A stretch of DNA of 64,000 nt from Leifsonia sp. TF02-11 (GTDB lineage Bacteria; Actinomycetota; Actinomycetes; Actinomycetales; Microbacteriaceae): NCBI RefSeq assembly GCF_017565305.1, contig NZ_JAGEKP010000005.1:1-64000 (forward strand). Direction: 5' to 3'. Positions 54,064 through 57,523 of this stretch are shown one piece after another. The position numbers were made by a program, and so were the translations under genes. Under the pieces are notes generated by a model that did no database searches, had not been told where the DNA came from, and saw nothing but the letters and a program-made list of their open reading frames with translations. Position 1 is the first letter of the stretch; each line of letters starts with the position of its first letter.

Positions 54064-54684
54064 ATGTCCGCGACCTCCAGCGCCGCCCTCGCACGTGCCG
54101 TCGTCACACTCGCGCTGTCGGCGGCCGTCGTGTTCGGCATCGCGGGCTGCACGGCAGCGGGCGGCCCGTCCACGTCGCCGAGCTCGTCGGAATCGCCGAC
54201 GGACACCGGGTCCGCGTCGCCGCGGCCGACCGGGACCAGCACCGCGCAGCCCGTCGAAGGGCAGTGCGCGACGTCCAGCCTGAAAGGCACCATCGGACAG
54301 GGGGGAGGCGGGGCCGCCGGCAGCGTGGAGGTCACCCTGGTTCTCACCAATCACGGCTCGGCCCAGTGCTCGCTGCAGGGCTGGCCCGGTGTCTCCTTCG
54401 TCGGGGGCGGCAACGGCACCCAGCTCGGCAAGCCGGCCGACTTCGACAGGAGCACCCCGCACGCGACGGTCGTCCTCCGGCCCGGCGGCACCGCACAGGC
54501 GGCGCTGAAGATCGTCCAGGCGATGAACTACCCGGAGGGGGACTGCAAGCCGCAGAAGGCCGACGGGTTCCGCGTCTATCCGCCCGGCTCCACCGAGTCG
54601 CTGTTCGTGAGGGACGACACGGTCACGGCGTGCACGACCACGACCGTCACGCTGCTCACCGTCGGCGCCCTGGCCGCGCCGTGA
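54064..54684 (+). CDS. DUF4232 lipoprotein
   Basis: 206 aa: hydrophobic N-terminus with lipobox IAGC near residue 29, a Ser/Thr/Pro linker, and a DUF4232 domain (VTLVLTNHGSAQCSLQGWPGVSFV) with four Cys in two probable disulfides. Extracytoplasmic; function unknown. GACAAT ends 5 nt before the ATG, close to a leaderless layout. Confidence 0.85.
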   Translation: MSATSSAALARAVVTLALSAAVVFGIAGCTAAGGPSTSPSSSESPTDTGSASPRPTGTSTAQPVEGQCATSSLKGTIGQGGGGAAGSVEVTLVLTNHGSAQCSLQGWPGVSFVGGGNGTQLGKPADFDRSTPHATVVLRPGGTAQAALKIVQAMNYPEGDCKPQKADGFRVYPPGSTESLFVRDDTVTACTTTTVTLLTVGALAAP

Positions 54685-54726
54685 CGCGCCGTGACGCGCC
54701 GCCACGGCGGACGATAGCCTGATTCC

Positions 54727-56880: not shown

Positions 56881-57489
56881 ATGCGGACAGGTCGGGTGTA
56901 CGTCGAGATCGACATCGCCTGCGCCGTCGACGACCTCTGGGCGCTGACGCAGGACCCGGCGCTGCACGCGCGCTGGGACCTGCGGTTCAGTTCGATCGTG
57001 CCCACCGACCGGCTGGCGAGCGGCGGGTACCGGTTCCGGTACGAGCGGAGGATCCCGCTGCACACGATCGCGGGCACCGGCACCTCCCTCGGCGAGCGCA
57101 CCCGGCCGGACGGCACGCGCACCTCGGCGCTCCGGTTCACGACCGGCGACCGGCTCTCCCCGCTGGGTGAAGGACGGGGCTATTGGCGATACCTTCCGAC
57201 CGAATCGGGCACCACCTTCATCACCGGCTACGACTACGTGCCCGGGTGGGGGAGGTTCCTCGACGCACTGGTCTCCCGCCCGCTGATCGGGTGGATGACG
57301 GCGTGGAGCTTCGACCGGCTGCGGATCTGGGCGGAGACCGGCACGCCGCCGGAGGAGTGGCCGCTCCGGTCGGTGCTGCAGTTCTGGCGACGGGATCGGC
57401 CGCGCGCTTCCCGGTGTCTGCGCGTCCCGCGCTACGCTCGCGGGGCGGACCGCGAGCCCGCGACCCTGGCCACCTTGGAGGCGCCGTGA
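56881..57489 (+). CDS. SRPBCC-family (polyketide cyclase-like) protein
   Basis: 202 aa with the START-like pattern VYVEIDIACAVDDLWALTQDPALHARWD at the N-terminus and GYDYVPGWGRFLDALVSRPL near the end, a ligand-binding helix-grip fold. No catalytic assignment is possible. It ends in ATLATLEAP-stop, the same residues encoded by the repeat units that follow. Coupled through them to the DUF4166 gene. Confidence 0.8.
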   Translation: MRTGRVYVEIDIACAVDDLWALTQDPALHARWDLRFSSIVPTDRLASGGYRFRYERRIPLHTIAGTGTSLGERTRPDGTRTSALRFTTGDRLSPLGEGRGYWRYLPTESGTTFITGYDYVPGWGRFLDALVSRPLIGWMTAWSFDRLRIWAETGTPPEEWPLRSVLQFWRRDRPRASRCLRVPRYARGADREPATLATLEAP

Positions 57490-57523
57490 CGCTGGAGGTA
57501 CCGTGACCCTGGAGGCGCCGTGA
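57473..57523 (+). repeat. three 17-bp tandem copies of ribosome-binding site plus GTGA
   Basis: Copies at 57473-57489, 57490-57506 and 57507-57523 share the form NCTTGGAGG/CTGGAGG then CGCCGTGA or TACCGTGA. Each supplies GGAGG, a spacer and GTG overlapping TGA. The first two GTGs open hexapeptide frames (VTLEVP and VTLEAP) that end at the next GTGA. The third GTG starts the DUF4166 gene. Confidence 0.9.

Follow-up and report, generated by a model that had tools for sequence, protein, structure and literature searches.

In Leifsonia sp. TF02-11, an SRPBCC gene meets a DUF4166 gene at a junction made up of three 17-bp units in tandem (table 1), and 30 nt now separate the SRPBCC stop from the DUF4166 start. 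The window is the whole stretch of 64,000 nt analysed here. At E 0.01, no NCBIfam model matches either gene product. Against three relatives, pairwise dN/dS is 0.09-0.16 for the last 190 codons of SRPBCC, and against the three nearest relatives it is 0.07-0.10 for DUF4166; judged by these values, which also average over the time preceding the duplication described below, both flanking genes are shown to be under purifying selection. The gene after DUF4166 in the window encodes a trypsin/PDZ protease, unlike in genomes G006 and G011, where the orthologue is directly followed by a second, diverged DUF4166 frame (loci L022 and L027). Upstream in the window, a 10-bp repeat, CGCGCCGTGA, is present in 2.7 perfect copies at 54675-54701; it repeats a GTGA stop without GGAGG and is placed at the end of an ORF (54064-54684), 5' of a CLC-channel gene (54727).

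Table 1. Features of the SRPBCC/DUF4166 junction, in window coordinates. Here and in the text, the peptides of mini-ORFs are written without the stop that ends them.
Feature	Position	Strand	Description
SRPBCC gene, 202 aa	56881..57489	+	Inferred ATG start; Polyketide_cyc2 PF10604, E 4e-8; ends in TLATLEAP and stop
17-bp unit 1	57473..57489	+	GGAGG 57477-57481; GTGA 57486-57489 contains the SRPBCC stop TGA
Mini-ORF 1, VTLEVP	57486..57506	+	GTG ACG CTG GAG GTA CCG TGA; predicted, by translation
17-bp unit 2	57490..57506	+	GGAGG 57494-57498; GTGA 57503-57506
Mini-ORF 2, VTLEAP	57503..57523	+	GTG ACC CTG GAG GCG CCG TGA; predicted, by translation
17-bp unit 3	57507..57523	+	GGAGG 57511-57515; GTGA 57520-57523; 16/17 positions identical with unit 1
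DUF4166 gene, 223 aa	57520..58191	+	GTG start; PF13761, E 3e-57

All three units share the layout GGAGG-N4-GTGA, and TRF describes the array as period 17 with 3.2 copies and a score of 80. Sequence and TRF thus confirm the three tandem copies carrying GGAGG and GTGA that the earlier note had reported, and its two hexapeptide ORFs, each with a stop overlapping the next start, are also present as VTLEVP and VTLEAP. The overlap is 4 nt at every step (SRPBCC stop with VTLEVP, VTLEVP with VTLEAP, and VTLEAP with the DUF4166 start), so that the NTGA stop/start overlap of gene pairs coupled at -4 nt occurs at 57486, 57503 and 57520, and the Shine-Dalgarno sequence GGAGG of such pairs lies 4 nt 5' of the start in every unit. 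Pairwise identity among the units is 13-16/17, with one mismatch between units 1 and 3, three between units 2 and 3, and four between units 1 and 2. The four variable positions of the array all fall outside GGAGG and GTGA, which is suggestive, though it concerns one array. The window contains the three-unit pattern (at most 3 mismatches) a single time and none of 100 dinucleotide shuffles contains it, whereas the lone unit GGAGGN4RTGA is common in this genome (109 sites vs 30 for the reversed control). An assembly error seems unlikely because the array is just 51 bp long and its units can be told apart. The predicted RNA fold of the junction is weaker than that of its own shuffles (z = 2.2; relatives, -0.4 to 0.3), and coupling via unfolding may, on this model, be less important here.

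The nearest named DUF4166 orthologues are those of L. shinshuensis DP-L11 (94% protein identity) and Leifsonia sp. Leaf336 (93%); among 28 genus genomes searched, three besides that of the window have a close orthologue (E below 1e-130). The three nearest Leifsonia orthologues (L002, L003 and L004) carry a single unit each, in the sequence context CTGGAGGCGCC GTGAC, and the single-unit junction of the nearest relatives reads GGAGGCGCC-GTGA. In the alignment the window is longer than these three loci by exactly 34 bp at the junction, and flanking synteny is kept with the two relatives compared. GGAGGN4RTGA was counted within 110 nt 5' of the start at 82 loci, namely L001-L004 and L030-L107, with the paralogue loci L005-L027 and the duplicates L028/L029 omitted. 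Units number three in the window, one at each of 25 loci and zero at the remaining 56, and no second unit was found at any of the 81 relatives' loci. Similarly, the best upstream self-match of the last 17 nt is 16/17 in the window and 8-12/17 at the other 81 loci. Among the relatives examined, the array is therefore seen in one species only. A constant single copy in relatives, which the earlier note had named, together with a lack of effect of copy number on expression, as evidence against its proposal, describes the relatives counted, where the number never exceeds one, and does not describe the window itself, with its three units. The array is most simply read as a derived, lineage-specific tandem duplication, because the nearest relatives are single-unit, the window exceeds them by 34 bp, and a second unit is absent across the 81 loci. 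Peptide conservation, as looked for in a leader peptide (attenuator), was not found: none of the 81 relatives counted has a corresponding mini-ORF, since none has a second unit.

We scanned for paired GGAGG-RTGA units in 398 genomes of the family and in 394 and 384 genomes of the class (about 770 different genomes in total). At spacing 4, 73 places were found in 51 of 384 class genomes, including the window's two, vs 10 for the reversed control; at spacing 5, 54 places were found in 40 of 384 class genomes vs 18 for the control, 10 of the 54 being one conserved sequence. The family scan gave 27 places in 23 of 398 genomes (control, 13), and phases read from that scan alone were dropped, as several matches were chance-like; at L128 and L129, for example, of the upstream frames the longer one stops at the second TGA. 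Counting overlapping pairs of one array separately, cores with at most 2 mismatches make up 58 of 63 distinct pairs at spacing 4 and 27 of 53 at spacing 5, with equal spacing on both sides. The core criterion has just 5-6 free positions, and some analogues may be chance pairs and not duplications; whole-unit identity is low, for example, at L246 (22/35) and L217 (19/29). These counts show that start-unit arrays recur across actinomycetes.

The period of such an array determines what an extra start would encode. Twin in-frame starts result from a period of 0 mod 3; at 2 mod 3, translation from the extra start would stop at the next TGA, as in a relay; and at 1 mod 3 it would enter the gene out of frame. 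A gene start was accepted when the ORF opened by the last start had 60 codons or more and lay in the frame of highest GC3, leading the other frames by 0.08 or more. Phases are given below in the order 0 : 2 : 1 mod 3, with the window excluded and homologues merged. The window's unit-1-to-unit-3 pair (1 mod 3) was omitted, as was L135, whose search pattern fits period 17 alone and hence only 2 mod 3. Of the 68 arrays, those passing the start test merge into 32 loci and show 15:17:0, with starts that are predicted from GC3 and related species that are partly non-independent despite the merging; arrays failing the test show 14:8:10 (n = 32). An array within a gene cannot have a period of 1 mod 3, and removal of the 3 of 32 loci possibly affected by this confounder leaves 13:16:0 (n = 29). 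For 2 vs 1 mod 3, the contrast is 16:0 at starts vs 8:10 where the start test fails (P = 0.0004, Fisher's exact test).

The same pattern is evident in subsets and in a replicate. With whole-unit identity of at least 80%, the phases are 7:11:0 at starts (n = 18) vs 10:6:8 for arrays failing the test (n = 24). Where the first TGA closes an upstream coding frame, they are 3:7:0 (n = 10; 7 vs 0, P = 0.016). The spacing-5 replicate, with its criterion fixed in advance (core identity of at least 11), gives 7:9:0 (9 vs 0, P = 0.004), and 5:9:0 under the stricter core of at most 2 mismatches. Relaxing the GC3 margin to any positive value brings in a period of 1 mod 3 at 3 of 40 loci (L165, L177 and L206). 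Because this period is absent at starts and present where the start test fails, ribosomes probably read copied starts in most cases. The simplest reading is that an out-of-frame copied start would be harmful, and that twin starts and relays would be tolerated. Twin in-frame starts account for 15 of the 32 analogues; relays are not clearly favoured over them, so there is no sign of selection for relays as such. The stop/start relay that the earlier note had considered possible is borne out in its anatomy, and the phase rule in analogous arrays backs the reading of such duplicated starts by ribosomes.

Several analogous loci resemble relays in their translations, from which a gene was also named where it has no Pfam call. 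At L121 and L203, an ABC-permease-like frame is followed by VIKEAL and an ABC-ATPase-like gene; at L135, a sensor-kinase-like frame is followed by VTVEGP and a response-regulator-like gene; and at L136, VIREAR lies ahead of an acyl-CoA dehydrogenase gene. In two congeners, a decapeptide mini-ORF (MTARRTREAT at L182, about 1430-1480; MTGRHIREGT at L184, about 1440-1490) lies 5' of a septum-formation gene of the DivIC/FtsL type (DivIC by Pfam for L182), and the frame 5' of the mini-ORF is one that we take to be rsmH-like. The relay at L159 (about 1470-1600) is cleaner than that of the window: a 197-codon frame ending in VEVA leads through three chained VSDDRAEVA mini-ORFs, in 26-bp units, to a metallo-beta-lactamase-fold gene. 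In its congener L157 (about 1470-1620), two mini-ORFs read VSDDRAEVA and the third VSDDRAEVG, and the stop of this third one has lost its overlap with the start. Moreover, L158 (about 1440-1560) has three and its congener L171 (about 1350-1460) two chained units of the MTDDRLREE type immediately before a universal-stress-protein gene, the Pfam assignment being for L171 only. Unit number therefore differs between species at some loci. Matches to the DDRLREE unit number three in genome G692 and two in its congener G619. This repeat was also considered as a dispersed family and rejected, an exact-pattern search giving one locus per genome in two of the three genomes searched.

Other short repeats and mini-ORFs were noted beside these arrays. 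A pentapeptide mini-ORF (MREDA, MREDA and VREAA) is conserved in three genomes on the gene strand at about 1500-1530 of L110, L111 and L112, where it overlaps the start of a gene that is presumably recombinase-like. The congeners L195 and L197 have 18-bp in-frame start units in three and four near-perfect copies, forming stacked alternative starts. L118 (about 1495-1640) has a unit of about 22 bp with GGAGG[A/C]GTTATG in six near-identical copies, which are off the relay phase and have no clear gene.

Our main reading of the Leifsonia junction, to which we give a probability of roughly 0.7, is a tandem-duplicated Shine-Dalgarno/stop-start unit that is tolerated owing to its 2 mod 3 phase and whose starts would be able to pass ribosomes on. 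The two extra 17-bp junction copies would have arisen in the lineage of this strain through tandem duplication, probably by slippage. Since the upstream stop lies within the first copy and the downstream start within the last, a duplication of any length would spare both proteins and leave them intact. As 17 is 2 mod 3, each extra GTG would run into the TGA of the next copy, which would yield the two hexapeptide mini-ORFs, and a ribosome finishing SRPBCC could re-initiate step by step and so cross an otherwise 30-nt gap. De novo recruitment of ribosomes would be possible at each GGAGG too, and DUF4166 may be started de novo by unit 3 alone. The array is most likely near neutral, or would slightly reduce DUF4166 output per SRPBCC, and may persist because its phase leaves the gene undisturbed. 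We infer slippage, the translation of the mini-ORFs and the size and sign of any effect. In E. coli and Haloferax, according to the portions of PMC10666635 considered here, gaps of about 20 nt nearly abolished termination-reinitiation in six native gene pairs, which makes chained overlaps a plausible means, by analogy, for coupling to outlast a 30-nt separation. A relay is perhaps unneeded, because other reporter studies, as summarized in parts of PMC10666635 and PMC12548453, see coupling over longer gaps with a weaker distance dependence; in these parts the two papers disagree in describing one such reporter study.

Slippage could also have been purely neutral, with untranslated mini-ORFs and with DUF4166 begun de novo at the last GGAGG, as it would be in relatives that have one unit. 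Unit 3 by itself recreates the relatives' context and the array is known from a single species, both as such a history would have it; the phases of the analogues argue against it, with 1 mod 3 at 0 of 32 predicted starts vs 10 of 32 loci failing the start test, and we consider it rather unlikely. A more active role was suggested in the earlier note, in which selection on unit number would set DUF4166 output, or switch it, among strains. The difference between three units in the window and one in congeners would fit such a tuning or phase-variation device, and so would the varying count of DDRLREE matches between G692 and G619. The units have however diverged, by as many as 4 of 17 positions, and very recent slippage is therefore not evident; the array is absent from every other species examined; and nearly half of the analogues (the 15 of 32 given above) are twin in-frame starts, without a clear preference for the relay phase. 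To judge from these comparisons, a device of this kind is improbable.

The remaining two explanations concern the origin of the extra DNA and the fate of the stop. A mobile repeat resembling the mycobacterial MIRUs, inserted at the start codon, would share the coupling geometry of a repeat ORF that overlaps a gene start by 4 nt. Dispersal of this type was rejected for the window unit: CTGGAGGNNCCGTGA is found at three places in the genome, two of them inside the array, and the 34-bp insertion is similar in sequence to the local junction taken twice. There is hardly any chance that such an insertion made the array. Readthrough of the SRPBCC stop, giving an SRPBCC-DUF4166 fusion protein, is suggested by the TGA at 57487 and the GTG at 57520 sharing one frame with no further stop between them; about one-third of insertions would align the frames by chance, however, and the two genes are in different frames in the single-unit relatives. 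On this sequence evidence readthrough would be a most improbable account.

The geometry of this junction belongs to a familiar type. Termination-reinitiation at NTGA (-4 nt) is the commonest coupling geometry known, according to the passages of PMC10666635 and PMC12548453 that bear on it, and in coupled pairs of this kind, as far as those passages and the relevant part of PMC6728339 go, the Shine-Dalgarno sequence likewise lies within the upstream ORF. The Leifsonia junction differs from these in being tripled, with two added steps via 6-codon ORFs between the genes. MIRUs, such as those of senX3-regX3, are described in part of PMC12548453 as repeats whose ORF couples at -4 nt to a gene start; for senX3-regX3, an excerpt of PMC4213456 gives tandem copies that vary between strains, three 77-bp MIRUs in H37Rv, and two of 77 bp plus one of 53 bp in CDC1551. 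The Leifsonia array is like these in geometry only, its repeat ORF and the flanking gene standing in the -4 nt arrangement. As those excerpts have it, MIRUs are longer, dispersed and apparently mobile, whereas the Leifsonia unit is short (17 bp), non-dispersed and a match to the local junction. The earlier note's statement that it knew of no described equivalent was therefore too strong, as mycobacterial MIRUs are described repeats with an ORF coupled at -4 nt. Short-ORF ribosome 'delivery' and engineered bicistronic designs, in the section of PMC12548453 that deals with them, likewise bring the ribosome to a gene through a short upstream ORF, with one ORF before the gene where the Leifsonia array has two in series between two genes. 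Tandem-duplicated Shine-Dalgarno/start units or a phase rule were not reported among the matches listed (titles and abstract openings in open-licence PMC).

It is also possible, and we propose it tentatively, that start-unit arrays form a recurrent, unnamed class of gene junction in actinomycetes in which selection keeps only the twin-start and relay periods, and in which unit number would act as an evolvable ribosome dial. If this is true, slippage would copy units and their number would set how many ribosomes reach the downstream gene. Natural arrays of one, two or three steps are a ready series for measuring the loss per termination-reinitiation step, and could show whether post-termination ribosomes scan or require overlaps, a point disputed in the literature. 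The phase rule provides evolutionary evidence for the reading of copied starts. For genome annotation, the array carries a warning that hexapeptide ORFs may bridge genes that are seemingly 30 nt apart.
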